Positions 1,460 through 16,442 of a stretch of DNA of 20,297 nucleotides are shown in pieces (position 1 is the first letter of the stretch; the number at the start of each line of letters is the position of its first letter). The notes below the pieces were generated by a model. The model made no database searches and had not been told where the DNA came from. It worked only from the letters and a program-made list of their open reading frames with translations. This DNA comes from a virus. The position numbers and the translations under genes are program-made. Where the stretch lies: the IMG/VR virus record IMGVR_UViG_3300015171_000040, positions 1 through 20,297 of that record. One strand, 5' to 3'.

Positions 1460-2208
1460 CCTTAACTCTGACACAGTCGATCACAGCCGTAACGGCCAAC
1501 GTCCCCGCCTCATTCCTTGGCGTGGGCGGGACCGCGCCGTACACCTACGCGGTGCTTGCGGGCGGCGCGGGCGGCACGGTCAACCCCTCGACGGGTGCCT
1601 ACGTGGCGCCTCCGGTGGTCGCGAGTCAGGGCGCGCAGCTTTACGACACCGTGCAGGTGACCGACAGTCTCAGCGCGCAGGCGCAGGCCCGCATCCTCGT
1701 TGGCTCGGCCCTGCTTTTACTCTGCGACATTATACAAACTGGCTTAGGCCTGCAGGATGGCCGCGTCTATCTCTGGGATCAGAAGATCATGCAACCGACG
1801 GACTCGGACCTCTACATAGCGGTCTCGGAGATGCAGCCGCGCGTCTTCGGAAACAACAATCGTTCGGTGGGTTCGCCAGGCGACATGGTGTCGATGCAGT
1901 ACGCGACAATTTCGTCGAAGGTCGACATCGACATCATCTCGCGCGGTCCGGCGGCGCGTGACCGCAAGGGCGAGGTGATTATGGCGCTTAACAGTAACTA
2001 TGCGCAGCAGCAGCAGTATGCAAATTCCTTTTACGTTGGGAAAATGCCGCCGGGCGCTCAGTTCCTTAACCTGTCGCAAATCGATGGCGCCGCTATACCC
2101 TATAGGTATAAAATAACGATAGCCTTGCAATACACCGTCACGAAGACCCAGTCCGTTCCATATTTCGACACGTTTGTAAATCCTCCGACGGTTTACACAA
2201 ATTCATAA
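1456..2208 (+). CDS. Probable tail terminator/completion protein with N-terminal Ig-like domain (250 aa)
   Basis: The frame opens at TTG 1456, overlapping the previous stop as TTGA; no good Shine-Dalgarno is seen, so coupled reinitiation is assumed. Residues ~5-80 form an Ig-like or He_PIG-like module (GGTAPYTYAV..., GGTVNPSTGAYVAP, DTVQVTDSLS). From residue ~82 (LLLLCDIIQTGLGL) the protein changes character to an alpha/beta domain with YIAVSEMQPRVFG and DIDIISRGPAARDRKGEVI, ending in a beta strand plus a PYFDTFVNPP tail. The gene sits immediately before the sheath, where contractile phages place the tail terminator (gpU/gp15-like, capping the tube and binding the neck). That role is inferred from position and size; the Ig-like module is unusual for it. 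A neck or head-completion protein is the alternative. Confidence 0.6.
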   Translation: MTLTLTQSITAVTANVPASFLGVGGTAPYTYAVLAGGAGGTVNPSTGAYVAPPVVASQGAQLYDTVQVTDSLSAQAQARILVGSALLLLCDIIQTGLGLQDGRVYLWDQKIMQPTDSDLYIAVSEMQPRVFGNNNRSVGSPGDMVSMQYATISSKVDIDIISRGPAARDRKGEVIMALNSNYAQQQQYANSFYVGKMPPGAQFLNLSQIDGAAIPYRYKITIALQYTVTKTQSVPYFDTFVNPPTVYTNS

Positions 2209-2218
2209 GGGAGCATAA

Positions 2219-3352
2219 ATGGACTTACCAATTACAAACATTATCGACATCTCGGTCTCGGCGACTCCGCTAGGAGTTAACGCTTACAACACGAGCAACC
2301 TGGCGATTTTCACCGGCGAGACGCCGGCCTTGAGCTTCGGCTCTTTGGGTTACAAGATCTACCTAGAACCTGGCGACGTCGCGACCGACTTCGGTTCTTC
2401 GAGCGTCACGTTCCAGATGGCAAACGCCGTCTTCTCGCAGCAGCCGAACATCCTCGCGGGCAACGGCTACCTCGTCGTCATCCCGTTCTTGTCACTGGAG
2501 ACCCTGGCTGCCGCGATCACGCGGACGCAGAACCTCGTCCAGTATTTCGGCATTATCAGCGCGGCGATCGAGTCGCAGGTTGACATGTTGGCGGCCGCGG
2601 CGGTTGTTCAGCCGCTGAACAAGATTGCCTTCTTCCCGCAGTACGCGGCTGGTTCGATCGCCCCGGGCGGATCGCTTGACCTTGTCCGCACTGGCGGTTT
2701 CAGCCAGTCACGCGGCCTTTACTACGGCGACTCGACCAGCTCGGGCCTTAACGCCCTGCTCATGGGCGCTGCTTACGCCAGCCGCGGCCTGTCGGTCAAC
2801 TTCTCTGGGTCGAATACGACTTTGACCATGCAGCTTAAGTCTTTGATCGGCATCCAGCCCGATCCGTCGATGACCGAGACGCTTTACAACGAAGCCCTAG
2901 TGGCGGGCGCCGACGTCTACGCGAGCATCCAGGGGACGCCGAAGGTTCTTACCTCTGGTGCCAATACGTTTTACGATAGCGTTTATAACCTCCAGTGGTT
3001 CGTTGGCGCATTGCAGGTCGCGGGCTTTAACTACCTGGCGCAGGCTTCCACGAAGGTACCGCAAACTGAGAGCGGCATGACCGGCCTTCGGACCGCTTAC
3101 CAGCTGGTCTGTGCTCAGGGCGTGAACAATCAATATTTGGCGCCGGGTACCTGGACAAGCCCGACAACCTTCGGCAATCAAGCGCTGCTTTTGGCGAACG
3201 TTGCGCAGTTTGGCTACTACCTCTACTCGACGCCGATCGCGCAGCAGTCGCAGCTCGACCGGGCGGCGCGCAAGGCTCCGCTCATTCAGATCGCTGTCAA
3301 GGAAGCCGGCGCAATCCATACGAGCAACGTTATTATTAACGTCAACCCGTAA
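2219..3352 (+). CDS. Tail sheath protein (DUF3383-like, 377 aa)
   Basis: ATG at 2219 is preceded by AAGGGAG at good spacing. The N-terminus (ITNIIDISVSATPLGVNAYN) followed by SNLAIFTGETP matches the opening of DUF3383/sheath-type proteins: a beta strand ending in 'xVxISxxPxG', then a Gly/Thr-rich turn. The centre has alternating helices and strands (GYLVVIPFLSLETLAAAITR) and the C-terminus ends in a strand (IHTSNVIINVNP), as expected for the arm exchange between sheath subunits. At 377 residues it is short for a sheath, consistent with a minimal contractile tail without large surface insertions. It is followed by the tube gene, the standard order. Role: contractile outer cylinder that drives the tube into the host envelope. 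Confidence 0.8.
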   Translation: MDLPITNIIDISVSATPLGVNAYNTSNLAIFTGETPALSFGSLGYKIYLEPGDVATDFGSSSVTFQMANAVFSQQPNILAGNGYLVVIPFLSLETLAAAITRTQNLVQYFGIISAAIESQVDMLAAAAVVQPLNKIAFFPQYAAGSIAPGGSLDLVRTGGFSQSRGLYYGDSTSSGLNALLMGAAYASRGLSVNFSGSNTTLTMQLKSLIGIQPDPSMTETLYNEALVAGADVYASIQGTPKVLTSGANTFYDSVYNLQWFVGALQVAGFNYLAQASTKVPQTESGMTGLRTAYQLVCAQGVNNQYLAPGTWTSPTTFGNQALLLANVAQFGYYLYSTPIAQQSQLDRAARKAPLIQIAVKEAGAIHTSNVIINVNP

Positions 3353-3384
3353 GAACGATTTAAAAACACAATGGGAGGTTTTAT

Positions 3385-3840
3385 ATGCCAACAGTAGCTA
3401 TGTCAGGTGACGACACCATCGTGATCAAGGGCCGGAACTTTTCCGACCTTGCCGACGGCAACTGCGTCGAGTTAACGTTTCCAAACGACATCGCCAACGT
3501 CAAGACCGGTAAAAATGGCAACTCGATTTACGGCCTGAATACCAGCGGCCGTCAAGCGGAGCTAAAACTCCGCTTGATTCGCGGCTCGCAAGACGACATC
3601 TATATGAACGGTCTGCTGAACAACCAGCAGAACAACTTTCAGGGTTTCGTCCTACTCTCGGGCAGTTTCACGAAGAACATCGGCAACGGCGAAGCGGGCG
3701 TCCTTCCGGACACCTACAACGTGGCTGGCGGCGTCTTCGTCAAGCAGGTGGAAGGCAAGACCAACGTCGAGGGCGACATCGAGCAGTCAATCTCGGTCTA
3801 TACCATTCGATTCAGCAACGCGCCGCGCGCCATCGGTTAA
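3385..3840 (+). CDS. Tail tube protein (151 aa)
   Basis: ATG at 3385 has a strong GGGAGG site 6-7 bases upstream. The 151-residue product is mostly beta structure, with DDTIVIKGRNFSDLADGNCV near the start and RQAELKLRLIRGSQDDIYMN in the middle, resembling the simple tube proteins (DUF3277-like) that follow DUF3383-type sheaths. Size, position directly after the sheath and before the chaperone pair, and lack of a signal peptide or membrane segment all fit the inner tube that forms the DNA conduit. Naming rests on gene order and general fold features rather than a unique motif. Confidence 0.78.
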   Translation: MPTVAMSGDDTIVIKGRNFSDLADGNCVELTFPNDIANVKTGKNGNSIYGLNTSGRQAELKLRLIRGSQDDIYMNGLLNNQQNNFQGFVLLSGSFTKNIGNGEAGVLPDTYNVAGGVFVKQVEGKTNVEGDIEQSISVYTIRFSNAPRAIG

Positions 3841-3854
3841 AGTGAGGAGTTTGA

Positions 3855-4259
3855 GTGGAATCACGCGAAGTAAAATGCCCTAGTGGCGCTGTACTAAAGA
3901 TTCAACCGAGTCCGTTTGCCGTTTCTAAGGCGCTTTATCAAGCGGTCCTTAAAGAGGTGGCAAACATCCAGGTTAAGCAGGAGGACGAACTCGCGAACTT
4001 CATTAAGAACCTGTTCTGCGCGGGTTTTTCCTCCCCTGAGATCGAGGGCATGGTCTGGAAGTGTATGGAGCGCTGCCTTTATAACACGGGCACTGGCGAC
4101 CTCCGTATCACCGAGCAGTCGTTCGAACCGGTCGAGCGCCGGCAGGACTACATGTTCGTGTGTATGGAGGTGGTCAAAGAAAACATCGACCCTTTTGGGA
4201 AAGTCCTCTTTGCCGAGTTCAAACGATATATGGGGATGATCGCCGACTCCCGGAAGTAG
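3855..4259 (+). CDS. Tail assembly chaperone, zero-frame product (gpG-like, 134 aa)
   Basis: The frame begins at GTG 3855 with AGTGAGGAG upstream; the next in-frame ATG lies far inside. The protein is small, soluble and helical (SPFAVSKALYQAVLKEVANI), followed by a more polar domain, without membrane segments. Placed between the tube and tape measure genes, it is in the position of lambda gpG and other tail assembly chaperones, which coat the tape measure before tube polymerisation and are not in the finished virion. The end of the gene carries a canonical -1 slippery heptamer at 4190-4196, so this is the major, unshifted product. Confidence 0.8.
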   Translation: MESREVKCPSGAVLKIQPSPFAVSKALYQAVLKEVANIQVKQEDELANFIKNLFCAGFSSPEIEGMVWKCMERCLYNTGTGDLRITEQSFEPVERRQDYMFVCMEVVKENIDPFGKVLFAEFKRYMGMIADSRK

Positions 4260-4429
4260 TCGTAAAAGAGGACGACCTGCTGATCTACATCAAAATGTGC
4301 AAGGCCGGTTACGCGACATCGATAAGGGAAGCCGGCACGATGACGGCGCGAGAGGTTCTGCAGGCACTGGCTTACGAGAAGTTTTGCAGTGACTACGACC
4401 GGGCTTATGTGGAGATTAACCGTCCGTGA
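3855..4429 (+). CDS. Tail assembly chaperone, -1 frameshift product (gpGT-like, 191 aa)
   Basis: A second open frame (-1 relative to the chaperone) overlaps its end, being free of stops from 4085 to 4429. It has no convincing start of its own: the earliest start-type codon is a GTG at 4160 with no ribosome site. Slipping back one base on CCCTTTT (4190-4196) joins 114 residues of the first frame to 77 residues of the second, with the junction reading ENIDPF-WESPLC. The extension holds KEDDLLIYIKMCKAGYATS and AREVLQALAYEKF, a compact helical domain like the 'T' part of G-T pairs, which recruits tube protein. It ends at TGA 4427-4429, overlapping the GTG of the tape measure gene. The frameshift is inferred from sequence and family precedent. 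Confidence 0.78.
4190..4196 (+). other. Programmed -1 ribosomal frameshift heptamer (C CCT TTT)
   Basis: The heptamer fits X XXY YYZ exactly in the zero frame: codons CCT and TTT re-pair as CCC and TTT after a one-base slip. It lies 63 bases before the zero-frame stop, inside the window shared by the two chaperone frames. I saw no convincing downstream stem-loop at the usual 5-9 base spacing; a weak GGG/AGTC with GACT/CCC pairing (4197-4205 with 4245-4251) touches the heptamer directly. Confidence 0.8.
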
Positions 4430-6315
4430 CGACGATTGCCGAACTTTTCGTTTCGATAGGCATCAAAGGGTCTGATAAGACCCTTGAGGCGTTCGTCAAG
4501 GTACAAAAGGGTCTAGAGGGCATCCTCAGTACGTCGTTCCAGACGAAGGCGGCGATCCTGGGGATTGCCTATGCCCTTGAGCAGCTAGGCGCCTCGGCTG
4601 GCGAGACAGGTATCGACCTGACGAACTTCGAAGCGTCGACAGGCGTTTCGACGCAGGTACTTGAGCGCTATACCTGGGCAGCCAAGGCGGCGGGCGTTAC
4701 CACGAATGAGATGGCCGGGACGTTTAAAAGCCTGCAGTCCAACATGGCGAAGACCCTCGCCGGCCAAGGTGCGCCGTCGGGCATGGCGCGCGTCGCCATG
4801 CAGACGATGGGCATCACCAAAGAGAACATCGCCCAGTTCGAAAAGCAGCCAGAAAAACTGATTCAGATCCTGCAAAAATACGCGCTATCGGCCAAGGACA
4901 AAGGCCTAGCGCGTATGGTTCTCGACTCGTTCGGCATCGGTGGTCGGTCGCAGGATGCCCTGTTTAAAGGCCTGTTCAACGACAAGAACATGGCCGATGC
5001 CCGCGTCCACAGCTCGGCGCAGCTTCACACAATGGAGCAAGTTGGCGTCGGTATTTCGAAGCTTAAAAGCAAGTTCGAGTTCGGCAAGGACAACTTCATA
5101 ACGAAGTTTGGCCCGCAGCTGCTTAAGGACATTGACCCTCTGGTCGACAAGCTCTTTAAGCTGGCAGGCGCGTTCGAGAAGTTATCCGAAAAAGCCGAGC
5201 TTATGCGTTGGATCGGCAAGGCCTTCGAGGGCTGGACGTTCATTTTTACGCAGCTCACCGAGCTGCTAGAGACCTTGACGGCCAAGCCACTACCGCAGGG
5301 CGTGATCGACGAGGACAAGAAAAATAAGCGCCAAGAAGCGGCTATGTGGGTTGAGGGCTCGAAGTCGGTTGCCGAAGCGCAGGCACGCGCCTTTCAACAC
5401 GGCATCGACCCGGCCCTCGCCGAGGATGTCTACCGTGAGGGCGTGACGAACCAAGTAAAAGGGAAGATGCCCTTCCACCTCTACACGCCACCCAGCCGCA
5501 CGAATCTCCCAGACATGGGGTCTGAATCATATAAGGCCGGCGAGAAGGCGAAGGTCTTCCCTGCACGGGGCGTGGGGTCTTCCCAATCATCCGACGCGGG
5601 CATGCGGGCTGGCACACATGAGGCGGGCGGTTTCGTGGCCTACTTCGCCGACGGCGGCCCGGTCTACATGGCTGGTGGCGGCCTGACTAATGATGCGATA
5701 AATAAGAAAGGCTGGAAGGCCGACAACAACCCCGACTACCGCGTGGGGTCTTTCCCCGCATTCATCGATAATCAGGGCAACCGTTGGGTCTATAGCAGGT
5801 GGAATAGCCTCTACTTTGTCGACACCCCCGAAGGGCCTGCCGCGCCAGAGAAAGACTATGTCGCGGACATCGACAAGCGCCACTACGAAGCCCATAAGGC
5901 GGCCGGTGGCCCGGTGGGTTACTACGCCGGCGGCGGCGGGCCGAAGGGCCACGACACCGTACCTGCATGGCTTGACCCTCGCGAGTACGTCCTTACGGCC
6001 GGCATGGTCCAGCAGGTAGGCGTGCACAATCTAGAGGCTTGGCGCAAAGGCGGCAAGAACACGGCCAGCACGTGGATCGGCAACCCGGGCAAGCCTAAGG
6101 TTGCCCATCTGGCGGCCGGCGGTCTGGCCGACATGGCGCGCCCGTCCCTCCCCAGCCTCGCTTCGGTAGGCGGCGGCGGCGCGGGCTCGACGACCAGTAT
6201 TCAGCAGACCCTGAACTTCCAACATCCGGGGACGAACGCCAGGGAAACGGGCGACTCGGTCAAGAAGGCCGTGAGCGACGCCTTTCGCTCCCTACCACAG
6301 TCGCAGGCTAACTAA
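4426..6315 (+). CDS. Tape measure protein (629 aa)
   Basis: GTG at 4426 overlaps the chaperone extension stop (GTGA). It is one of the two longest frames in the window and follows the chaperone pair, which is diagnostic of the tape measure. The N-terminal ~350 residues are helix-rich (TIAELFVSIGIKGSDKTLEA, then MAGTFKSLQSNMAK). The rest is a low-complexity Gly/Ala region with repeated 'DGGPVYMAGGG' and 'GGPVGYYAGGGGPKGHDTVP' segments, followed by a 'DPREYVLTAGMVQQVG' motif. Such segments are typical of phage tape measure C-termini (GTDTVPAxLTPGEFV type). At about 0.15 nm per residue the tail would be roughly 94 nm. No peptidase or lysozyme domain is evident. It sets tail length and is ejected ahead of the DNA. 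Confidence 0.88.
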   Translation: MTTIAELFVSIGIKGSDKTLEAFVKVQKGLEGILSTSFQTKAAILGIAYALEQLGASAGETGIDLTNFEASTGVSTQVLERYTWAAKAAGVTTNEMAGTFKSLQSNMAKTLAGQGAPSGMARVAMQTMGITKENIAQFEKQPEKLIQILQKYALSAKDKGLARMVLDSFGIGGRSQDALFKGLFNDKNMADARVHSSAQLHTMEQVGVGISKLKSKFEFGKDNFITKFGPQLLKDIDPLVDKLFKLAGAFEKLSEKAELMRWIGKAFEGWTFIFTQLTELLETLTAKPLPQGVIDEDKKNKRQEAAMWVEGSKSVAEAQARAFQHGIDPALAEDVYREGVTNQVKGKMPFHLYTPPSRTNLPDMGSESYKAGEKAKVFPARGVGSSQSSDAGMRAGTHEAGGFVAYFADGGPVYMAGGGLTNDAINKKGWKADNNPDYRVGSFPAFIDNQGNRWVYSRWNSLYFVDTPEGPAAPEKDYVADIDKRHYEAHKAAGGPVGYYAGGGGPKGHDTVPAWLDPREYVLTAGMVQQVGVHNLEAWRKGGKNTASTWIGNPGKPKVAHLAAGGLADMARPSLPSLASVGGGGAGSTTSIQQTLNFQHPGTNARETGDSVKKAVSDAFRSLPQSQAN

Positions 6316-7193
6316 TGGCGATAAACCTCTCGACACTAGGTAGCGCTTCGACGACAGCCCTGGCGTTGTCTAACCTCGTCCTCGTGACGCCGACGACGGA
6401 CGTCGGCTACCAGCCTGGGTTTCCCAAGAACTTAAGCCTTGAAGAAACTTTCGGCCTTTTTAACAAGCAGCTGCCGCCGCCGATTATGTTCCACTACGAG
6501 GGCGAGCAGTCGGTTCTTTTGCAAAGCGACATCACCGACCACTTCATCGAAGACAACACGGCGATCCAGGACCAAATTGCTCTTAGGCCGAATAAGATAA
6601 CGACCCACGGATTTATCGGCGAGCTAAACGACGTACCGCCGCCAGCCTTGGCGCTACTAAAGGCTGCCGCCGAGAAGCTTACGACGATCGTCGCCTATGC
6701 TCCTGGCCTTAGCTCGGCCGCGCAGCTCGCTTATAACACCGCCCTCGACCTTTATCAGACGGCAAGTGCGGTCGCTACGTCGGCCGGCGCCGCGTGGTCG
6801 TCGCTCAGCGGCAATACGAGTCAGGCTACTATTAACGGCAACGGCCTGAATACGTCGGAGCTGGCGCCGCAAAATAAGCAGCAGCAGATATTCCAGCAGT
6901 TCTACCAGGCGTGGAACAACCGCGTACTCTTTACCGTTCAGACGCCTTACGCCGTATTCGAAAACATGGCCATCGAGACACTCCGGGCTATTCAGGGTGC
7001 TGAGACGAACGTCATAACTGACTTTGAAATTACATTTAAGATGATTCGCATAGCATCGACAACCGTGACCGGTGAGTCTCTTTCGGGCCAAGCGGCGGCT
7101 CAGGCGGCGGCCGTCATCAACAACGGCGTTGGGTCAGGATCGACGGGTGTATCAGTGGCGCAGGGCCTGGCATCCACGCTTGCCGTCGCCTAG
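6315..7193 (+). CDS. Dit-like baseplate/tail-tip protein (292 aa)
   Basis: The ATG overlaps the tape measure stop (TAATG). The segment at residues ~60-105 (HYEGEQSVLLQSDITDHFIE, then DNTAIQDQIALRP and HGFIGELNDVPP) is characteristic of Dit-like N-terminal domains that follow the tape measure in contractile phages. Middle residues ~110-175 are Ala-rich helices. The C-terminal half returns to beta structure with NRVLFTVQTPYAVFENMAIE and VITDFEITFKMIRIAS, which resembles the second beta layer of the ring. In this gene order the protein links the tube to the hub. The Ala/Ser/Gly-rich end is probably disordered. The exact family name is not certain. Confidence 0.68.
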   Translation: MAINLSTLGSASTTALALSNLVLVTPTTDVGYQPGFPKNLSLEETFGLFNKQLPPPIMFHYEGEQSVLLQSDITDHFIEDNTAIQDQIALRPNKITTHGFIGELNDVPPPALALLKAAAEKLTTIVAYAPGLSSAAQLAYNTALDLYQTASAVATSAGAAWSSLSGNTSQATINGNGLNTSELAPQNKQQQIFQQFYQAWNNRVLFTVQTPYAVFENMAIETLRAIQGAETNVITDFEITFKMIRIASTTVTGESLSGQAAAQAAAVINNGVGSGSTGVSVAQGLASTLAVA

Positions 7194-7202
7194 GGGTATG
7201 TA

Positions 7203-7547
7203 ATGCGTCAGATAAACCAAGTGACCGTAAACGCCCTACAGCAGCAGACGTTCGTCCTAGAGGACGGCACGTCCTTCTCGTTTACGCTTTACTACTCGCC
7301 GATCCAGCAGGGATGGTTTTTTACCGACATTACCTATCAAACCTTCACCCTTAATGGCATGCGCGTAACGAACAATATCAATATGTTAAACCAGTGGCGC
7401 AACCTCATTCCGTTTGGCATCGGCTGTATATCGAAAGCCAACCGCGAGCCGTCGCTACAGCCAGACTTCGCGTCGCGAGCGTCTACGCTTTACGTACTCG
7501 ACAAGGCGGAGTGCCGGGAATACGCGAGGCTTATCGCCGTTGGATAA
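7203..7547 (+). CDS. Baseplate plug protein (Pam3 gp18-like, 114 aa)
   Basis: ATG at 7203 has AGGGG upstream. The protein is a small beta barrel by pattern: QTFVLEDGTSFSFTLYYSPI, then QGWFFTDITYQTFTLNGMRV, then a C-terminal ASTLYVLDKAECREYA. Alternating strands with 'Y-S-x-x-x-x-G-W-x-x-D-I' followed by 'L-x-G-x-R' are typical of the short plug protein found before the hub in simplified contractile baseplates such as cyanophage Pam3. It would close the tube end above the spike. The stop at 7545-7547 lies inside the start of the hub gene (TTGGATAA), an 8-base overlap. Confidence 0.65.
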   Translation: MRQINQVTVNALQQQTFVLEDGTSFSFTLYYSPIQQGWFFTDITYQTFTLNGMRVTNNINMLNQWRNLIPFGIGCISKANREPSLQPDFASRASTLYVLDKAECREYARLIAVG

Positions 7548-8454
7548 GTTTGGACGAAATTATATCCTAACGATCGGCACGCCGTCCGGCGCATCGGTCA
7601 TAGTTCAGCTGCCATTTACTATTGAATTCGACATCGTCCGCAACACGCTGACGTCGGCTAACCTATGCAAGCTTCGGATCTACAACCTGTCGCTCCACAA
7701 CCGCAACCTACTGCGTGTCGACTCTAGCAGCTATGCCATAGGCATCAAATACCCGGTAACCTTCGTTGCCGGGTATAAAAACAACATGGCAATCGTCTTC
7801 TCCGGCAATATTCATACGGCCTTTTCGCGGCGCGAGGGCATCAACTTTATCACTCAGATAGAATGTTTTGACGGCGGTTTTGCTTTTGCAAACAGCGAAA
7901 CGTCGGTGGTTTTGCCACCCGGCATGAGTAATCAGCAGATCATCTACGCCTTGATGGCCGACTATGAAAAGTACGGGATCACGCCCGGTGTCGTGGGCGC
8001 CTACCCTGGTCCCGTATCGACGCGCCAGACTTCCTATAACGGCTACACTGCGGACTTGATTCAGGAGAAGACCGGAGGGGGCCACTTTATCGACAGCGGT
8101 TATGCCCACGCCATTGCGACGAACGAGTTTATCGTCGGCGATTCAGGCATTTATACAGTCAGCGCCGCGACGGGACTTCTGGAAACCCCGACGCTTGAAA
8201 ACCTAACGCTGCGCTTTCGAATGATCTTCGAGCCAGCCCTGCAGGTCGGGACGTTGATAAACCTAAACAGCCTGTCGGGATCAACCGACGCCACCGGTGG
8301 TGTCGGCGCTGGCGTTGCCTATAACGGTCAGTATAAGATCACGGAAATCAAACACCACGGGATGATATCCGAGTCCGTTTGCGGCGAGGCAATCACCGAA
8401 GGCGGTTTTTACAACATTAAGCCGGGCACGCCGGCGGCGGGTATCGTGCCATGA
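7540..8454 (+). CDS. Baseplate hub protein (gp27/gpD-like, 304 aa)
   Basis: The open frame extends upstream to 7414, but those codons are antisensical Arg/Ser-rich translation of the plug gene. The sensible start is TTG 7540, overlapping the plug stop by 8 bases. From there the protein reads as an ordered beta-rich hub: LTIGTPSGASVIVQLPFTIE, then a 'LCKLRIYNLSLHNRNLLR' strand-turn motif seen in hub proteins. Next comes a central segment (SVVLPPGMSNQQIIYALMAD) and a C-terminal strand region (LRFRMIFEPALQVGTLINLN). Hubs form the trimeric ring that seats the spike. The stop overlaps the spike ATG (ATGA), so the pair is probably coupled. Confidence 0.72.
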   Translation: MDKFGRNYILTIGTPSGASVIVQLPFTIEFDIVRNTLTSANLCKLRIYNLSLHNRNLLRVDSSSYAIGIKYPVTFVAGYKNNMAIVFSGNIHTAFSRREGINFITQIECFDGGFAFANSETSVVLPPGMSNQQIIYALMADYEKYGITPGVVGAYPGPVSTRQTSYNGYTADLIQEKTGGGHFIDSGYAHAIATNEFIVGDSGIYTVSAATGLLETPTLENLTLRFRMIFEPALQVGTLINLNSLSGSTDATGGVGAGVAYNGQYKITEIKHHGMISESVCGEAITEGGFYNIKPGTPAAGIVP

Positions 8455-9242
8455 CCGGGCCAATATCTTTTGTAAAACAAAACCTCTACCCGGCGCAGCC
8501 AGAACTCAAGGATGTGCTGAAATTATTTAAGAAAAACCTTTTCCTTGAGTTTAACTGTCACCACGTCGGCAGCATTCAGACGTTTAATCCCGTCGATCAA
8601 ACGGCCATAGCGGCGATTAGCTACCCGAAGACGTTTTTTGTTCTAGACTCCTCCGGAAACTACGTAGCCCAGGCTTCAAACTATCCGCTACTCGTGAACT
8701 GTCCCGTTGTCGTCATGGGCGGCGGCAACGGCGCCCTGACCTTCCCTATCGCCCCTGGCGACGAGTGCATCGTCATGTTTAACGACCGCGACCTAGATAA
8801 CTGGTTCCATAGCGGCAACATAGGCACGCCCGTCAACAGCTCGCGCCTCCACTCGTTCTCTGACGCCATGATCCTAGTCGGGCTGCGGTCCATGCCTAAC
8901 GTCCTGGTCGACTACAACGCGACGGGTGTTGAGCTACGCAACCGCCTGGGGACAAGCACGCTGACAATCGAGGCGAATGGCGACATCACGATGACGACGC
9001 TGTTCGGTTTTTTTACCTTCAAGGCCAACTCAGACATCCACTTTAACACCGGTACGGTCGAGGGCCTGATCGGCCACGGCGGACACGTCCAATTTAAGAA
9101 CATCGCCGGCAACGAGTATACGGCCGCGCTGATCCAGCTCTTTACCGACCTTGCAGCGGGGACGGATTCGATGGGCCTGCCCCTGACGATGCCGACCTTC
9201 CCGGCGGACTTGGTCAAATTTCAAACGTTTTTGGAGCCTTAG
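8451..9242 (+). CDS. Baseplate central spike (Gp138-N/gpV-like, 263 aa)
   Basis: ATG at 8451 overlaps the hub stop. Residues ~30-115 form an OB-fold-like domain with the Gp138 N-terminal signature: VGSIQTFNPVDQTAIAAISY, then LTFPIAPGDECIVMFNDRDL and DNWFHSG. A short linker (RLHSFSDAMILVGLR) leads to a repetitive beta-prism stem (LTIEANGDITMTTLFGFFTF, then KANSDIHFNTGTVEG), the usual trimeric spike shaft. The C-terminus is helical and could cap the stem or bind a tip protein. No lysozyme domain or PAAR motif is visible. Role: pierces the outer membrane on sheath contraction. Confident from domain order and position. Confidence 0.78.
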   Translation: MTGPISFVKQNLYPAQPELKDVLKLFKKNLFLEFNCHHVGSIQTFNPVDQTAIAAISYPKTFFVLDSSGNYVAQASNYPLLVNCPVVVMGGGNGALTFPIAPGDECIVMFNDRDLDNWFHSGNIGTPVNSSRLHSFSDAMILVGLRSMPNVLVDYNATGVELRNRLGTSTLTIEANGDITMTTLFGFFTFKANSDIHFNTGTVEGLIGHGGHVQFKNIAGNEYTAALIQLFTDLAAGTDSMGLPLTMPTFPADLVKFQTFLEP

Positions 9243-9244
9243 TT

Positions 9245-9440
9245 ATGGCACTCAACAACGGCACGGCCGATGCCCTCGCGACGGCCTTCTGTGCCTGCGT
9301 GGAAGGTCTTCTGCGAGACGTTGTACGCGCATCTTAAGACGGATATTGATATAACTATCCCTATGAATTCGATCACAACGGCTGGTTCCGCGACAACGCA
9401 GGTGGGTCCTCCGGCACCTGTAACCTTAACACCGGACTGA
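9245..9440 (+). pseudogene. Small baseplate-region gene disrupted by a +1 frame change
   Basis: ATG 9245 opens a frame (MALNNGTADALATAFCAC...) that stops at TAA 9335-9337 after 30 residues. In the frame one base ahead, sensible protein continues from TGG 9300: WKVFCETLYAHLKTDIDIT, then NSITTAGSATTQVGPPAP, ending at TGA 9438-9440. Together they resemble a single ~65-70 residue protein commonly found between spike and gp25-like genes ('MALNxGTAxALATA...' to '...W...YxHLKT...'). That resemblance is from memory. The switch lies around 9292-9300, and a few residues may also be missing there. Possible causes are a real inactivating indel, a sequencing error or a programmed +1 shift; no known +1 signal is visible. 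An independent start at ATG 9270 in the second frame would give an Arg/Pro-rich N-terminus and looks less natural. Confidence 0.6.
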
Positions 9441-9442
9441 AA

Positions 9443-9811
9443 ATGCGGGTGCGTGAAATCGATTCTTCTGGCGACTGGCTCTTTGGCAAGGGTCAGAACG
9501 ACTATCTGACGGCCAACCCGGCGATCGCCCAGAACATCAACACGCGCCTCGGGTCGTTCCTCGGCGACTGCTTCTTCGACCTCAAGGCCGGTATCGACTG
9601 GTTCAACCAGCTGGGCGCTAAAGACCAGACAGCTCTTAACTTGTCGATTTCGGCCGTCATCTTAAACACGGTGGGTGTGACAGGCATCCTACAGCTATCG
9701 GCCAATACGGACCCGCGCACGCGGCGTTTTACCGTTGTCTATAAAGTAGCGACCGTCAACTCGACCGTTACCGGCGTGTATCAATACGACACTAATCCAA
9801 TAGCGGGATGA
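9443..9811 (+). CDS. gp25-like baseplate wedge protein (122 aa)
   Basis: ATG 9443 begins two bases after the preceding stop. The N-terminus (MRVREIDSSGDWLFGKGQND) leads to a helix (YLTANPAIAQNINTRLGSFL), then a segment 'FDLKAGIDWFNQLG', and two C-terminal strands (LSANTDPRTRRFTVVYKVAT). This is the pattern of the gp25/Mu gp46-type wedge: 'xDxxGDWxxGxGxxDY', 'QxixTRLxxxxG.wfLD...GiDW'. It is followed directly by the J-like gene, its usual partner in the baseplate wedge, where gp25 also primes sheath assembly. Length is normal for the short version of the family. Confidence 0.75.
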   Translation: MRVREIDSSGDWLFGKGQNDYLTANPAIAQNINTRLGSFLGDCFFDLKAGIDWFNQLGAKDQTALNLSISAVILNTVGVTGILQLSANTDPRTRRFTVVYKVATVNSTVTGVYQYDTNPIAG

Positions 9812-9815
9812 GACT

Positions 9816-11507
9816 ATGAGCGTCAACGCACTGACAGCCAATGGCCTAACGTTCATGACGCGGTCCGACTGGGTTACATACTTTACGACGAAGTATCAGC
9901 AGATCTACGGCGCCGACATCAACCTGGCGTCGGACACGCCGGACGGCCAAATGATGAATATTTTCATCCAGGCTATCCTCGATGTTCAAGACCTTTTGCA
10001 ACAGGTCTACAGCACGTTCGACCCGGACAATGCGATCGGGAATGTCTTAGACCAGCGCGTCGCGATAAACGGCATCCAGCGGCAAGCCGGCACGAATACA
10101 GTCACACCGGTAACGCTCGTCACGTCGGCCTCGGTAAACCTCTACGGCCTCGACCAGACGGTACAGCCGGTCTATACGGTTGCCGACAGTGCCGGCAACC
10201 AGTGGCAGCTGCAGCAGACGCAGCTCGGCGTGTCAATTGGCACGAACGTCTTTAACTTTCAGGCGGCCAACACGGGCGCTGTCTTGACCGTTCCGAACAC
10301 GATCACGATCCCGGTAACGGTTGTCCTCGGCGTCACGTCGATCAACAACCCAACGACCTATACGACCTTGGGGATAAACCAGGAGACCGACGCGGCGCTT
10401 AAGATCCGGCGCCTCAAGTCCGTCTCGCTCGCGTCGCAGGGCTACCTGCCGGGCCTACTCGCGGCCCTAGAGAACATCAACGGCGTGTCGTCGGCCTTCG
10501 TCTACGAGAACGACACCGACGTGACGAACGTCGACGGGGTGCCGAGTCATTCCATATGGGTCATCGTCGCTGGCTCGGGTGCGAACGCCGACATCGCCCA
10601 GGCGATCTATAACCACCGCAACGCGGGTTGCGGCATGTTCGGCACCACCTCCTATGTCATCACCCAGGTCGACGGCAGTCCGTTCGTCGTCCTTTGGGAC
10701 GTGGTCGTGACGAAGAACCTCTTCGTGTCGTTTACGGTGACGTCGATCAACGGCACAGTGGCGCCGAACATCGCGGCGATCCGGGCGCAGCTGCCGACCC
10801 TCTTTGTCCCGGGCGTCAACGCCGAGGTCAACATCAACGAGCTCGCCACGCTCGTCCAGGACATCGACAGCAACACGCTGGTGACGAACGCCGGCCTAAG
10901 CCTCGCCCTGACGCAGATCCTGACCCTGTCGGGCGTCGCGGCGAGTGGCCAGTTCAAGATCCTTTATAACGGCGCCTTGTCGCCGTCCTTTATCCAGTGG
11001 AACGACTCGATCGGCACGATTCAGACGAAGGTCCAAGCGACGGCCGGCCTCTCGGCCGCGACGGTCACGGGCAGCATCGCCGGCCAGACGCTGACCTTTA
11101 ACCTAACGGGCGTCGGCAGCAGCAACGGCCTAATCGTAGCTGTCCAGAACACGCTTCAGACCATAGCGCCGGCGCCGATCACCTTCGCCTATAACGAGGG
11201 CTACCAGAACATCCTCGCCTCGCCGTCGAAGCAGGATCAGTTCGTGACGTCGTCGGCCAACATCATCATATTGCCGATGCAGCTGACGCCGGGCTCGTCG
11301 CAGGTCGTCCACGGCAACAGCATTACGGTCACGGGCCTAGGCGGCTACGGCACCTACGTCTACTCGTTCCAGACGAACAACTCTGGCGGCACGATCAACC
11401 CGTCGAGCGGCTTCTATACGGCCGGCGCGACGGTTAGCGTTACCGACACGCTACGCGTGACGGACGTCTTTGGCAACACGGCTACGGCAACGGTCTCAGT
11501 GGTCTAA
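9816..11507 (+). CDS. Baseplate J-like wedge protein with two accessory beta modules (563 aa)
   Basis: ATG at 9816 follows the gp25-like stop by 4 bases. Residues 1-100 show the J/gp47 start: MTRSDWVTYFTTKYQQIYGA, then SDTPDGQMMNIFIQAILDVQ and DPDNAIGNVLDQRVAINGI. The central part carries ETDAALKIRRLKSVSLASQG, then LPGLLAALENINGVSSAFVY, as in baseplate J proteins. Two additions follow. Residues ~370-447 are a 'WNDS' module (FIQWNDSIGTIQTKVQAT), inserted before a typical J ending (NEGYQNILASPSKQDQFVTS). Residues ~485-563 are an Ig-like module (GGTINPSSGFYTAG, VTDTLRVTDVFGN). Each module recurs in another tail gene of this window. Core role: the wedge arm that joins the hub to the sheath-triggering apparatus; the modules may decorate the baseplate periphery. 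Confidence 0.82.
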   Translation: MSVNALTANGLTFMTRSDWVTYFTTKYQQIYGADINLASDTPDGQMMNIFIQAILDVQDLLQQVYSTFDPDNAIGNVLDQRVAINGIQRQAGTNTVTPVTLVTSASVNLYGLDQTVQPVYTVADSAGNQWQLQQTQLGVSIGTNVFNFQAANTGAVLTVPNTITIPVTVVLGVTSINNPTTYTTLGINQETDAALKIRRLKSVSLASQGYLPGLLAALENINGVSSAFVYENDTDVTNVDGVPSHSIWVIVAGSGANADIAQAIYNHRNAGCGMFGTTSYVITQVDGSPFVVLWDVVVTKNLFVSFTVTSINGTVAPNIAAIRAQLPTLFVPGVNAEVNINELATLVQDIDSNTLVTNAGLSLALTQILTLSGVAASGQFKILYNGALSPSFIQWNDSIGTIQTKVQATAGLSAATVTGSIAGQTLTFNLTGVGSSNGLIVAVQNTLQTIAPAPITFAYNEGYQNILASPSKQDQFVTSSANIIILPMQLTPGSSQVVHGNSITVTGLGGYGTYVYSFQTNNSGGTINPSSGFYTAGATVSVTDTLRVTDVFGNTATATVSVV

Positions 11508-11516
11508 AAGGAACAT

Positions 11517-12455
11517 ATGAGCCAGACAACTTACCAATTGCAAAAGTATTATCAGGACACGCTGATAATTCAGTACCTTGGTAAGCCACGCGCCTACGCG
11601 ACGATCGGCACGCAAGTCGCCCCGATTATTATGCCGCAGACGTCCGTCCAGACGGTGACGTTTGCGCTCGCGCCGACGAGTGGGACGTTCGTCCTAGAGT
11701 ACGGCGTCTACTCGACTGCGGCGATCAACTGGAACGACTCTACGGCTACGGTCCAGGGGAAGCTGCAGGCTGTCCCTGGTCTCGGCAGCGTGACTGTCAC
11801 GGGGACTATCGCAGGTCTCTTGCTGACGGTCACGTTCGCCGGTGTCTACGCCCCGGCCTTGCCGCTCGTCCTCGGCGCCCACTCGCTTCTGGCTACGGCC
11901 ACACCGGTCGTGCCAGAGATCCTAGAGACCGACCTAACGTTGCCGCTCGCCGTCCAGGCTGGGTTTAACGTCATCGCGCCGTCGCCAGCCGTCGGCAAGC
12001 AGCTCGACGTGATCGGCAAGTACGTCGGCGTGACCAGGACGGCCGCCGGCTTTACGACGCAGATCACGCTCGACGACGCCGACTTCTTGTCGCTGATCCA
12101 GATGGCGATCACGACCAACAACTCGGGGAGCTCGCTGGCCCAGATCCAGCAGCTCCTGCACTTCTACTTCCCCGGCGAAGTCTTGGTTTTTGACTACGCC
12201 GACATGCACATGAGCTACCTGATCGCCTCGACGGTCGGGTCGCAGCAGCTGGTACAGCTCTTCATCACCGAGAACCTGCTGCCGAAGCCGATGGGCGTCC
12301 AGATCCCGCTGATCATCTATGCGCCGGACATCACGCACTTCTTCGGCTTTAGGTCGTACTTCGCGGCGGCCGTCAACAGCACGCCGTTCAACGACTACGC
12401 CAGTTATCACACTGATTGGCCTTGGCTGTCTTACGCCAACGCGATCATTCCCTAG
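11517..12455 (+). CDS. Baseplate wedge protein, DUF2612-like, with inserted 'WNDS' module (312 aa)
   Basis: ATG 11517 has AAGGA just upstream. The N-terminal 40 residues (YQLQKYYQDTLIIQYLGKPR) are a DUF2612-type start. Residues ~48-125 are an inserted beta module (SGTFVLEYGVYSTAAINWND, then VQGKLQAVPGLGSVTVTG) that matches one in the J-like protein. The DUF2612 core resumes with LTLPLAVQAGFNVIAPSPAV, then LDVIGKYVGVTR, LDDADFLSLIQMAITTNNSG and SLAQIQQLLHFYFPGEVLVF, which are clear family features. Genes of this type follow J and correspond to the gpI/gp53-side wedge that carries fibre attachment. The C-terminal Trp/Tyr-rich tail (DYASYHTDWPWLSYANAIIP) is probably exposed. Confidence 0.75.
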   Translation: MSQTTYQLQKYYQDTLIIQYLGKPRAYATIGTQVAPIIMPQTSVQTVTFALAPTSGTFVLEYGVYSTAAINWNDSTATVQGKLQAVPGLGSVTVTGTIAGLLLTVTFAGVYAPALPLVLGAHSLLATATPVVPEILETDLTLPLAVQAGFNVIAPSPAVGKQLDVIGKYVGVTRTAAGFTTQITLDDADFLSLIQMAITTNNSGSSLAQIQQLLHFYFPGEVLVFDYADMHMSYLIASTVGSQQLVQLFITENLLPKPMGVQIPLIIYAPDITHFFGFRSYFAAAVNSTPFNDYASYHTDWPWLSYANAIIP

Positions 12456-13517: not shown

Positions 13518-13802
13518 GTGGAACTGATCGCCGCAGGCAGCGTACCCGGTTTACTCGCCGCTATTTCGGTGCTTATGGCACTGCACTTGGTGGTGGCTAT
13601 CGGTCGTTTTGTCTGGTCCTTTAAAGAGAAGAAAGACGCCGTAACCGAGGCTGGCATCGAAGAACTGGCGGCGGCGATGAAGTCCAACACCAAGGCAATC
13701 GAGAAGCTTAGGCAGCAGGTCTTCTCGTCGATCAAGCTCGTTGCCGGCGACAACTGGCCCGCCATCCGCAAGAGCCTACTAGACGAGGAGGCCCTGTCAT
13801 GA
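13518..13802 (+). CDS. Single-TM protein with charged helical tail, holin candidate (94 aa)
   Basis: GTG 13518 begins directly after the previous TAG. Residues ~7-32 (GSVPGLLAAISVLMALHLVV, then AIGRFVW) form one clear membrane helix. The rest (KEKKDAVTEAGIEELAAAMK, then NTKAIEKLRQQVF) is a charged amphipathic helix able to form a coiled coil. The gene overlaps the endolysin candidate by ATGA. A short membrane protein in this place is most simply a holin (class III-like, one TM), which would let endolysin reach the cell wall. A role as spanin or membrane anchor is possible. No sequence motif proves the holin call. Confidence 0.55.
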   Translation: MELIAAGSVPGLLAAISVLMALHLVVAIGRFVWSFKEKKDAVTEAGIEELAAAMKSNTKAIEKLRQQVFSSIKLVAGDNWPAIRKSLLDEEALS

Positions 13803-14149
13803 TCGACCCGGCGACACTACGGTGCAAGTGCGGCTGCGACGACCCGACGACCGTCACGATTTTGACGCTCGCCGGACTAAACACCATGGAGGCTATGGGC
13901 TGTGCTATTCGTCCAACGTGTGGTGTCCGCTGCCCTGTCCACAACAGTGCTGTTGGGGGCGCTGGCGATAGCCGGCACCTGCCTGTTCACGCTGATGCTG
14001 TGGACGTTGCTTGCACTGATTCGGTCGAAAGATTTCGACTAGTCAAGTGCGCGATCGCGGCGGGGTTCTCTTTTATCGAGGTGTGTCCCGCCCACGTCCA
14101 CGTCGACCGGCGCGAAGGGGCCTTGCGCCTTATCCTCGGGTCAGGCTAA
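13799..14149 (+). CDS. M15-type zinc peptidase, probable endolysin (116 aa)
   Basis: ATG 13799 overlaps the holin-candidate stop. The protein shows the peptidase M15A layout: GCAIRPTCGVRCPVHNSAVG, then SRHLPVHADAVDV (candidate zinc ligands His60 and Asp69), and a late EVCPAHVHVDRR (catalytic-type Glu94 region and His101). The spacing between His and Asp is two residues longer than the usual S-x-H-x-x-G-x-A-x-D motif, and the conserved Gly is replaced. Family members cut D-Ala-D-Ala or L-Ala-D-Glu bonds in peptidoglycan. There is no signal peptide, consistent with holin-dependent release, and no separate wall-binding domain. The N-terminal 13 residues include three Cys in CKCGC. Moderately sure. 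Confidence 0.65.
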   Translation: MIDPATLRCKCGCDDPTTVTILTLAGLNTMEAMGCAIRPTCGVRCPVHNSAVGGAGDSRHLPVHADAVDVACTDSVERFRLVKCAIAAGFSFIEVCPAHVHVDRREGALRLILGSG

Positions 14150-14164: not shown

Positions 14165-14223
14165 AGAGAAGATATTTCGAATGCTGCCTAGGTACTCCTC
14201 GCCGAGTACCTAGGCTCTTCTCT
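14165..14223. terminator. Bidirectional hairpin terminator between convergent genes
   Basis: A perfect 12-bp inverted repeat, GCCTAGGTACTC (14186-14197) and GAGTACCTAGGC (14204-14215), surrounds a 6-base loop. It continues outward as AGAGAAGA (14165-14172) pairing with TCTTCTCT (14216-14223), with a 13-base bulge on the left side. It sits exactly between the ends of the rightward endolysin gene and the leftward 14226-14573 gene. A short TTT follows on the right; no long U-tract is present, so the mechanism could be a hairpin-dominated terminator or an RNA-stabilising structure. Confidence 0.7.
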
Positions 14224-14225
14224 GT

Positions 14226-14573
14226 TTAGGCTACGCGCATCGCCTGGACGGCGGCGAGGACGGCTGGCTGCGCCGGGTGCACGACCTTGCCCAGCAGCGT
14301 CTCAAGGGTCGCGAGCGCGTCGGACCAGAGGCCGTTGGCCAGGTCTTTTAGGATCAGCTCCAAGTCCGCCGAGTCGGCGAGTGCAGCCTGCACCGCGGCG
14401 ACTGCACCGACGACCACGCCGTCAACCGTGGCGACGAGGAAGCTCGGAACGAACTTCGCGACGTAGCCTTCGGCCTCGGCCAAGACAGCGGCCCAGTCGA
14501 CGCCGGTCGTGAACTTCTCGAGTTGAGCGAGGACATACTGAACGACGAGTTGAACGAGCCAAGTCTTGACCAT
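14226..14573 (-). CDS. Lone leftward helical protein of unknown function (115 aa)
   Basis: The open frame extends upstream to 14657, but ATG at 14573 is preceded by a strong GAGGAGA site at 7-bp spacing and starts a sensible protein (MVKTWLVQLVVQYVLAQLEK). The product is almost all helix: an N-terminal amphipathic or hydrophobic helix, a middle hydrophobic stretch (PSFLVATVDGVVVGAVAAVQ) and two charged helices (LELILKDLANGLWSDALATL). It has no Cys and no clear signal sequence; membrane association of the Val/Ala-rich segment is possible. The gene is the only leftward gene in the rightward half, bounded by a hairpin at its end and a divergent promoter region at its start, so it is an independent transcription unit of the moron type. 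No family recognised. Confidence 0.65.
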   Translation of the reverse strand: MVKTWLVQLVVQYVLAQLEKFTTGVDWAAVLAEAEGYVAKFVPSFLVATVDGVVVGAVAAVQAALADSADLELILKDLANGLWSDALATLETLLGKVVHPAQPAVLAAVQAMRVA

Positions 14574-14683
14574 GGTGGTGTCTCCTCTACAGGGGTGAAA
14601 CTGGATTTTACGGGTGGATGAGTCTACAATTCTAAGACCTAAGCCCCAGGGACGCAAGTTTACGAACTAAGGGAGAACGCACA
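14574..14683. promoter_or_regulatory. Divergent intergenic region with candidate promoter elements
   Basis: This 110-base gap separates the leftward helical gene from the rightward protease gene. Rightward, TACAAT (14625-14630) is a 5/6 match to a -10 box with a poor -35 (TGGATT, 17-base spacing). Leftward, TAAAAT (complement of 14605-14610) is a possible -10 with a weak -35. Both genes have strong ribosome sites (AAGGGAG for the protease). Sigma-70-type rules may not apply to the unknown host. Confidence 0.35.
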
Positions 14684-15475
14684 ATGAAGTGGTTTTTCGG
14701 CCTGTTATTGGCCTTTTCAAGCATCGTCGCCATCGCCAACGACATCGTCGTCGACAAGAAGGGCGTCCCGCACGGGACGGGCTACGTCAAGAGTTTGACG
14801 CAGGGCGCGCCGAAGTTTTACTTCAACCCCGAGCCCACGCCGCTGCCAGACGAGTACGACTCGCGCAAGCTGGGCTTTATCGGACCGGTCAAGGACCAGG
14901 GCTCGTGCGGCTCGTGCTGGGCGTTTGGCGAGACCGAAGTCTTCGAGGACAGCCTTACGAAGGCAGGCAAGCCGGCGATGACGTTGGCGCCCCAGCAGAT
15001 GGTCTCGTGTGACCGCCAGGCGGCCGGCTGCGGCGGCGGCAATATGGATGACGCCCAGTACCTTGTCGACGTGGGCCTGGCCCTAGAGAAGGACTATCCC
15101 TACCGCGCCGCGACGACGCGCTGTAAACGCCCACTACCTAAGATCGCCGCCAAGGCCGCGACGTGGGCTTACGTCGGAGCGCCTGGCCGCGCTCCGACGG
15201 TGGTCGAGATAAAGCAAGCGGTCCTCGCTTACGGCGAAGGGTTCACGACCGTCGAGGCCGGCGGCCCAGACTGGAGTGGCCAAGAAGTCATGACGCACTG
15301 CCGCAACAGCGGATCGAACCATATTGTGACGATCGTCGGCTGGACGAAGGCCAACCAGTGGATCATGCGTAACAGCTGGGGCGTCGACTGGGGTAATGGT
15401 GGCTACGCGCTTATGCCGTTCGGGTGTGATAATATTGCAGGAGACCCCGACAGCTTCGCCTATATTATTCCCTGA
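14684..15475 (+). CDS. Exported papain-family (C1A) cysteine protease (263 aa)
   Basis: ATG 14684 follows AAGGGAG. Residues 1-18 (MKWFFGLLLAFSSIVAIA) are a Sec signal peptide with an AIA cleavage site. The mature-type domain starts near residue 54 (LPDEYDSRKLGFIGPVKDQG). It holds the oxyanion Gln72 and nucleophile Cys78 in QGSCGSCWAFG, the GCGGG turn at 115-119, His213 in SNHIVTIVGW and Asn230 in MRNSWGVDWGNGGY. All four catalytic positions of papain are present, with Cys pairs able to form disulfides. The pro-region (~35 residues) is too short for an I29 inhibitor domain. The catalytic domain, about 210 residues, matches papain's size. C1A proteases are rare in phage genomes. It probably acts in the periplasm or outside the cell; target unknown. 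The lipoprotein gene follows 17 bases later. Confidence 0.9.
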   Translation: MKWFFGLLLAFSSIVAIANDIVVDKKGVPHGTGYVKSLTQGAPKFYFNPEPTPLPDEYDSRKLGFIGPVKDQGSCGSCWAFGETEVFEDSLTKAGKPAMTLAPQQMVSCDRQAAGCGGGNMDDAQYLVDVGLALEKDYPYRAATTRCKRPLPKIAAKAATWAYVGAPGRAPTVVEIKQAVLAYGEGFTTVEAGGPDWSGQEVMTHCRNSGSNHIVTIVGWTKANQWIMRNSWGVDWGNGGYALMPFGCDNIAGDPDSFAYIIP

Positions 15476-15492
15476 CATAAAGGAACGTTACG

Positions 15493-16248
15493 ATGCGCCT
15501 TTTGCTCGCCCTTTGTCTTTTGACCCAAGTCGTCTCGTGTGGACGCCAGGAACAAGCAAAGTCCGAGCCTGAGGCGCTTCTTCGCTATGACGAGCGCCCG
15601 GCACAGGTTCTCGTCACCCGCAGGCTGGCGAAAGGGGACGTTCGCCAGCTTGCGGCCGAAGCGTTCGACGCCATGTTTACGGTCGCCGAGCGCGAGCTCG
15701 TCAAGGCCGGACACCAGGGCGAGGCCCTGCGCCTAGAGGCCGAGTGGCGCGGCACCTACCGCGGCATGGCCCTGGGGCTCGACGGCGACGTGGGCGACCA
15801 CGCGCCGCTGTCCGAGTGGGTTGCCAAGTGGTACCAGAAGCTCGAAGACTTGCTCGGCGTCCAGGTCATGGAGTTCTTCCACCTGCGGGACGTCTGGGTC
15901 CTAAACTTCACCATTCCGGTTGTCTTTGACGCCGCCTCGGCCAAGTCCTCTTGGTGTAACGACCAACTCGCCAAGTACCCTTACGACACGTGCGAGGCCG
16001 AGTACCGTCGTCACTTCGCCGGCACGCGTTGGGAGGCCGGCCCAGATCCCTTCGCCACTGACGTTCTGCACCACGGGTTCGCCGGGGTCGTGACCTACTG
16101 GGTCGTCTGGGCGGCGTGCGAGGCGGCGACCTACGGCACAGCCACTGCGCTCGTCTGTTCCGGTGCTGGCGACCTGGCCGAGATAGCGGTCGAGAAGTGG
16201 GTAGCCCCCAAGGTGTCCGACCGGCTTTACGAGAGGGCAAACCCGTGA
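15493..16248 (+). CDS. Predicted lipoprotein (251 aa), unknown function
   Basis: ATG 15493 has AAAGGA upstream. The N-terminus MRLLLALCLLTQVVSCGRQE is a lipoprotein signal with lipobox VVSC (Cys16); Gly at +2 does not signal inner-membrane retention. The body is soluble and charged, with helical stretches (QLAAEAFDAMFTVAERELVK, then WVAKWYQKLEDLLGVQVMEF). There is a Cys-containing middle (SSWCNDQLAKYPYDTCEAEY) and a hydrophobic C-terminal stretch (GVVTYWVVWAACEAATYGTA) that could be a buried helix or membrane contact. It lies in one unit with the exported protease and overlaps the next small membrane protein by GTGA. Roles such as superinfection exclusion, protease partner or outer spanin are speculation. 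No family recognised. Confidence 0.7.
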   Translation: MRLLLALCLLTQVVSCGRQEQAKSEPEALLRYDERPAQVLVTRRLAKGDVRQLAAEAFDAMFTVAERELVKAGHQGEALRLEAEWRGTYRGMALGLDGDVGDHAPLSEWVAKWYQKLEDLLGVQVMEFFHLRDVWVLNFTIPVVFDAASAKSSWCNDQLAKYPYDTCEAEYRRHFAGTRWEAGPDPFATDVLHHGFAGVVTYWVVWAACEAATYGTATALVCSGAGDLAEIAVEKWVAPKVSDRLYERANP

Positions 16249-16442
16249 GCCGGACGCGCTGGTTTATGCTGGCATTCATTGTCGTTTTCTTTGGCTATGA
16301 CTTGTGGACTCTGGTGGCCAACGGCTACGATACGACCGTGAGCGCCAGCATTGAGCAGTTGTCCAAGAACTGGCGAATCATACCCTTCACCTTTGGGGTG
16401 TTTGCCGGTCATCTATTTTTTTGCAACTGCAGGGAGTTTTAA
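16245..16442 (+). CDS. Small two-TM phage membrane protein (65 aa)
   Basis: GTG 16245 overlaps the lipoprotein stop (GTGA); the open frame upstream of it is a shadow. Residues ~5-25 (RWFMLAFIVVFFGYDLWTLV) and ~46-60 (RIIPFTFGVFAGHLFF) are hydrophobic segments separated by DTTVSASIEQLSKNW. The pattern 'S-x-S-I-x-x-x-S-x-x-x-x-I-I-P-F-x-x-G-x-x-x-G-H-L-F' is familiar to me from short, unnamed phage membrane proteins, often near lysis genes, so a holin-like role is possible. Function is not established. Confidence 0.65.
   Translation: MSRTRWFMLAFIVVFFGYDLWTLVANGYDTTVSASIEQLSKNWRIIPFTFGVFAGHLFFCNCREF

Follow-up and report, generated by a model that had tools for sequence, protein, structure and literature searches.

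The papain-like protease family C1A is old, and C1A proteins as such are already known from phages. Intracellular, PF00112-type members are encoded by Lak phages, Burkholderia FLC9, Thermoanaerobacterium phage THSA-485A and Gordonia phages (there as "cysteine protease"), and BFVD holds several phage proteins named "Peptidase_C1". The standard account of phage lysis relies on a holin, an endolysin and a spanin. Bdellovibrio-like predators grow inside their prey, and to our knowledge very little has been learned about the phages that infect predatory bacteria. One of them, the Bdellovibrio phage phi1422, is a dwarf myovirus from a group with ~45-kb genomes and was described as lytic (PMC3391216). 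Our literature search, which covered few subscription papers, returned no paper on phage C1A proteases or protease-aided lysis. Here we describe a 20,297-bp IMG/VR fragment, that is, part of a phage genome (the window), and P0001, the protease encoded by its ORF 14684-15475.

Identity, export signal and pro-region of the protease

The coordinates and strand of the protease ORF check out, with an ATG start and GGGAG upstream. Pfam places Peptidase_C1 (PF00112) on residues 54-247 of P0001 (E 3e-40, 139 bits, cut-off 20.7); NCBIfam gave no match. The catalytic residues Gln72, Cys78, His213 and Asn230 are all in place within their classic motifs, as the first-pass annotation of this DNA had proposed. 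Beside catalytic Cys78, the protein has six cysteines (75, 109, 116, 147, 206 and 248; seven in all), which from the alignment and papain numbering we take to be those of papain's three disulfides (22-63, 56-95 and 153-200). This pattern would be expected of a protein that folds outside the cytoplasm. P0001 matches cathepsin K by phmmer (2.3e-31), and the structure prediction that the annotation had suggested returned a papain fold: the AlphaFold2 model (46-row alignment) has a pLDDT of 90.5 and a pTM of 0.87, its best Foldseek match is procathepsin K (3.8e-23), and VIA-align superposes the two with a Z of 30.9 over 234 residues at 2.1 Å, pairing model residues 23-263 with 62P-215 of procathepsin K. 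Profile, tetrad and the AF2, Foldseek and VIA comparisons thus agree on the papain fold and on family C1A (PF00112), and the resemblance is far beyond chance. PF00112 is the sole domain above cut-off, with no peptidoglycan-cleaving domain (NlpC/P60, CHAP, amidase or M15), so P0001 does not classify as an endolysin. We conclude that P0001 is, as read from its sequence, almost certainly a full-length exported C1A papain-like protease.

The protein can be divided into a predicted signal peptide (residues ~1-19), a short pro-region (~20-53) and a peptidase domain (54-263). Residues 1-19 of the N-terminus, MKWFFGLLLAFSSIVAIA, are strongly hydrophobic and read as a Sec signal peptide, which fits the export proposed earlier. 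Only ~34 residues lie between the signal peptide and the mature domain. Pfam did not find an I29 inhibitor domain, and the I29/ERFNIN-GNFD propeptide of ~90-100 residues is absent, in line with the annotation's view that the pro-region is too short for a standard inhibitor domain. Its corollary, that activation must differ, is right in part: the ERFNIN/GNFD part is missing, but the model places residues 23-53 on the C-terminal half of the propeptide of procathepsin K, from 62P on, the half that fills the cleft (local pLDDT 72-80). In this model, the globular ERFNIN part appears to be gone and the strand running through the cleft to be retained. Thr32-Gly33 of the pro-region is invariant in an 11-sequence alignment.

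The gene lies next to tail genes in a tailed phage, which could point to a virion or head-maturation protease or to a tail-associated entry enzyme. We consider such a role very improbable, as an export signal would take the protease out of the assembly compartment, relatives carry lipobox variants and P0001 has no structural domain.

Phage lineage, relatives and probable host

The contractile-tail module of the window spans genes 1456-12455 and includes a sheath (phrog_205), a baseplate hub (phrog_196) and a wedge (phrog_6). The tail and baseplate module is collinear with that of phi1422 (Table 1), which places the window among phi1422-type dwarf myoviruses. This tail module also recurs in a prophage of one Bdellovibrionota genome (G100, contig C12, ~96-139 kb; L216-L218). 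The prophage is seemingly complete, is collinear with phi1422 as well as with the window tail module, and shows no C1A gene. Neither phi1422 nor most tail relatives were found to carry a C1A protease, which argues that the protease is accessory and not required for exit. The adjacent tail proteins 9816-11507 and 11517-12455 have in common a domain of ~90 aa (SGxFxLxYxG..IxWNDSxxTIQxK), and matches at shifted positions in related phages suggest that this domain is mobile.

Used as sole query against IMG/VR viral contigs, P0001 found no relative. An alignment query retrieved 36 virus contigs. About 25 of these code for relatives, most of them exported, that are 33-48% identical in the core. The catalytic tetrad is retained in 29/29 aligned homologues, most N-termini have a Sec signal or a lipobox, and dN/dS between close phage copies is ~0.09, which indicates purifying selection. 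The exported papain/cathepsin type had no match in named phage isolates (annotated phage records gave only four unannotated faecal contigs, at 22-27% identity), and a megablast search with the full window found nothing among isolated phages. The earlier statement that such proteases are rarely reported in phages therefore stands for the exported type in named isolates, yet it has to be set against ~25 metagenomic contigs and against the intracellular C1A proteins already annotated in THSA-485A, Gordonia phages and BFVD.

We built the protease tree proposed in the annotation from 69 rows, including 21 virus proteases. A 27-row clade (support 98/96) unites 19 of these 21 with five proteins from Bdellovibrionota and three other proteins. 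Within it, the window protease sits in a subclade whose six members are all viral (100/97). A tree in which the phage proteases of the 98/96 clade were made to form one group, and hence to have a single origin, was rejected (p-AU 1.7e-6), which argues for several transfers between phages and bacteria. The protease L077, which neighbours an ABC transporter on a cellular contig of a Bdellovibrionaceae MAG, is 51% identical to that of phage L051. One of the three other members, L094 (JAKPFN010000099.1, labelled as an Armatimonadota MAG), was considered as a non-Bdellovibrionota cellular homologue and rejected. Its contig is itself phage-like, which makes the MAG binning doubtful, and resembles the window cargo region: a fam31 protein (36%), a large f53 protein, an M15 peptidase and a C1A protease. 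Another phage C1A protease, L064:6816-8642 (IMGVR_UViG_3300047160_026084), has an apparent intein exactly at the catalytic Cys (junctions KDQGQCGS^CHSENTEVL...RVLISSN^CWDFSG; the LAGLIDADG match is weak), so that its activity could depend on splicing.

C1A proteases occur in many bacteria and the window is only part of a genome, recovered from a metagenome, which leaves a cellular gene on a mis-assembled or misclassified contig, outside phage biology, as an explanation. We give it almost no weight: the phage gene order is unbroken and the GC content matches, the closest relatives are all on virus contigs (the 100/97 subclade), and on many of the homologous contigs there are genes for a terminase, portal, helicase or polymerase. 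Judged from these phage genes and from the tail synteny with phi1422 and the prophage, the protease gene is phage-borne, as had been proposed from the window itself. The synteny with phi1422, the Bdellovibrionota prophage, the distribution of the partner gene fam15 (below) and the 98/96 protease clade together indicate that the phage very probably infects Bdellovibrio-like predatory bacteria, with Bdellovibrionota as the likely host group. The annotation had recognised neither this host nor the co-conserved partner gene nor the repeated gene exchange.

Gene neighbourhood and partner genes

The protease has tail, lysis and early-type genes on its flanks, as the annotation described, but a probable terminator and an opposite-strand ORF part it from the late operon. 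Nine inverted repeats were found in the window (4.3 expected), and the one at 14186-14215, which has by far the longest stem, is a probable terminator dividing the tail/lysis operon from the protease unit. The opposite-strand ORF between endolysin and protease had no convincing family match in Pfam or PHROG, and a pattern scan found no promoter-like site upstream of the protease. The unit consists of the protease, fam15 and a small membrane ORF. L049 has a comparable ORF ~1 kb downstream of its own protease gene. Minus-strand early-type genes, including a phrog_93 endonuclease, follow on its 3' side. On this gene order, the window protease is a separate unit placed just past the late operon.

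Table 1. Features of the 20,297-bp window, in order of position.
Feature	Position	Strand	Basis and remarks
Tail sheath, lineage marker	2219..3352	+	phrog_205 7e-55; 42% to phi1422, 54-55% to Bdellovibrionota prophage
Baseplate wedge protein	9816..11507	+	phrog_6 2e-34
Small protein, one N-terminal TM then coil, holin- or i-spanin-like	13518..13802	+	Hydropathy only
M15_3 peptidase, endolysin	13799..14149	+	PF08291 E 2e-10; phrog_894 endolysin 4e-10
Inverted repeat with 12-bp stem and T-rich tail, probable terminator	14186..14215	.	Pattern scan
ORF with one hydrophobic segment, probable internal ATG start	14226..14657	-	Between endolysin and protease; hydropathy
Exported C1A papain-like protease (P0001), 263 aa	14684..15475	+	PF00112, tetrad, AF2, VIA
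fam15, exported/lipobox (LTQVVSC) all-helical protein, 251 aa	15493..16248	+	Start 18 nt past protease stop
Small membrane ORF, holin-like topology	16116..16442	+	Hydropathy; likely GTG start near 16245 overlaps fam15 stop
fam31 lipoprotein (LLLSTGC), 280 aa	16587..17429	-	Homologues in protease-bearing L037, L039, L094

The partner fam15 has no Pfam or PHROG match, and its AlphaFold2 model (pLDDT 81) has no significant fold match in the PDB. The neighbourhood of plasmid C1 proteases, where I42 genes occur, had suggested a chagasin- or cystatin-like inhibitor; this idea was dropped, fam15 being all-helical and without such a match. fam15 is co-directional with the protease and within 1.2 kb of it in six records (the window, L037, L052, L219, L220 and L223), in both orders. 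A C1 protease occurs in 10/23 other virus records with fam15 versus 1/26 tail-related records (Fisher p 0.0013, indicative only given shared ancestry); among records of at least 25 kb the association is not significant (p 0.09). Homologues of fam15 are present in 26/291 Bdellovibrionota genomes (those examined lie on contigs that look chromosomal) and were found in none of 682 genomes from two other groups (0/398 of the phylum of Sterolibacterium, Pseudomonadota, and 0/284 of the phylum of the Myxococcota MAG). A linkage of fam15 and C1A within Bdellovibrionota chromosomes was rejected, as C1A occurs in 6 of the 26 fam15 genomes, in keeping with the base rate of 55/291. In L219, a gene for a thioredoxin-like lipoprotein (5692-6171) lies between the C1A protease and fam15, and its product could keep the catalytic Cys in its reduced form or ensure that the right disulfides form. 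In several phages, fam31 and the large f53 protein of unknown family (L037:8543-10576, L094:3464-5452) accompany exported proteases.

Role of the protease and comparison with known systems

Five lineage groups, the window among them, have a lysis gene near the protease, which lies at most ~2 kb from an endolysin and often adjoins it. The M15 peptidase of the window is ~0.5 kb upstream; a co-directional amidase lies about 36-45 nt upstream in L050, L059, L060 and L061, an M15 5 nt downstream in L051, a GH108 ~0.36 kb downstream in L220 and an M15 1.5 kb upstream in L223. In other carriers its neighbours are a terminase gene (L052) or genes of replication (L053, L038). The endolysin-protease neighbourhood is thus frequent, not universal, and no convincing candidate for a small o-spanin-like lipoprotein was found near the protease. 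A 994-aa exported protein encoded at L057:7986-10970 (IMGVR_UViG_3300037041_001506) fuses a C1A domain, through a Pro-rich linker, to a GDSL hydrolase and a GH5 domain, and the terminase large subunit (TerL) is encoded ~1.3 kb downstream; we take this fusion to favour a degradative role.

Recurrence beside cell-wall-lysis genes in several unrelated phages suggests a use in opening phage-bearing cells. The annotation had named three possible jobs: clearing envelope proteins at lysis, blocking superinfection and lysogenic conversion. The first fits the sequence data best, and our leading reading, to which we assign a probability of roughly 0.45, is that the protease may be an exported hydrolase that helps to dismantle envelope protein at phage exit. 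It would be made late in infection and exported by Sec, then fold in the periplasm with three disulfides or, in relatives, be anchored as a lipoprotein. The short N-terminal strand would fill the cleft and keep the protease latent until cleavage of that strand activates it. The active enzyme would then break down envelope-linked proteins in the predator and perhaps also in the bdelloplast around it, which would let cells treated with endolysin open and release their virions. fam15 might take part as a chaperone, anchor, inhibitor or membrane factor. Since their hosts live within prey, phages of such predators would have to open two cells, which could create a use for an exported protease.

Several observations weigh against this exit role. 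The window protease lies past a terminator and an opposite-strand ORF and hence is not simply a member of the lysis operon; some copies are adjacent to terminase or replication genes, and phi1422 and most tail relatives do without the gene. The weakening of the fam15 association in the longer records and the lack of enriched pairing in Bdellovibrionota chromosomes also count against it. A wider version is tentative: predator phages might repeatedly have captured host digestive exoenzymes (the papain-like protease with fam15, and in one case the lipase-like/glycanase fusion) as an exit kit. With similar reserve, such a kit could supply a protease-based lysis step alongside endolysin and spanins, directed against two nested cells.

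The strongest rival is a benefit to the host, in which protease and fam15 would act as a moron (lysogenic conversion), helping the bacterium while the phage is resident, for example in predation or saprophytic growth, and being dispensable for lysis. The separate unit beyond the terminator would suit this role, as would the cellular homologues of both proteins in Bdellovibrionota genomes, the repeated capture, the tail relative integrated as a prophage, the absence of the gene from most tail relatives and an antirepressor gene in one carrier. It has to contend with four further lineage groups in which the gene borders an endolysin or lies close to one, with an upstream region in which no promoter-like site was found, with a 20-kb fragment in which no integrase was seen and with the lytic description of phi1422 (PMC3391216). 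We regard it as possible but doubtful. Less likely still is superinfection exclusion or counter-defence, in which the exported protease would destroy surface receptors, proteins of rival phages or periplasmic defence proteins: its predicted periplasmic or lipoprotein location and accessory position would suit such a task, but no link to known exclusion genes was seen, and the fusion to lipase-like and glycanase domains in L057 better matches bulk degradation.

If envelope clearance at exit is the true role, an exported, disulfide-bonded protease adds envelope proteolysis to the list of phage lysis activities. Concrete markers for locating predator phages come from the window, from ~20 contigs related to it and from a partner gene of Bdellovibrionota type, and the short TG-motif pro-strand, together with a fam15 that matches no known fold, provides testable ideas on how a bacterial papain may be silenced without a full inhibitor domain.

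Compared with MEROPS clan CA family C1A (papain/cathepsin L-like), P0001 has the same Gln/Cys/His/Asn set, the six structural cysteines and the whole fold (Z 28-31), but lacks I29/ERFNIN, has a short pro-strand with a TG motif common to its relatives, is phage-borne and carries a bacterial export signal. It differs from the intracellular phage type, which has a GSCTA motif and no signal peptide, in having a signal peptide and GSCGSCWAF. A distant tail relative, record G015 (IMGVR_UViG_3300048502_000062), supplies an example of the GSCTAN form: L019:1405-2133, a non-exported C1A protein followed by small membrane proteins. Baculoviruses, ascoviruses and giant viruses also encode cathepsins with the C1A fold, but these belong to viruses of eukaryotes, differ in sequence and serve as an analogy only. 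phi1422 shares the tail/baseplate module, whereas no C1A protease was found in it; the half of the phi1422 genome that was examined also showed no fam15. The exported C1A proteases of Bdellovibrionota (L077, L155-L158) fall within the same 98/96 clade as the window protease; L077 resembles the phage proteases in its signal peptide, short pro-region and VTG motif and, unlike the window, has no adjoining fam15. As far as these collections show, what is new is a recurrent exported papain-type branch in phages tied to Bdellovibrionota, together with the partner of this protease and the fusion of several hydrolases in one protein.
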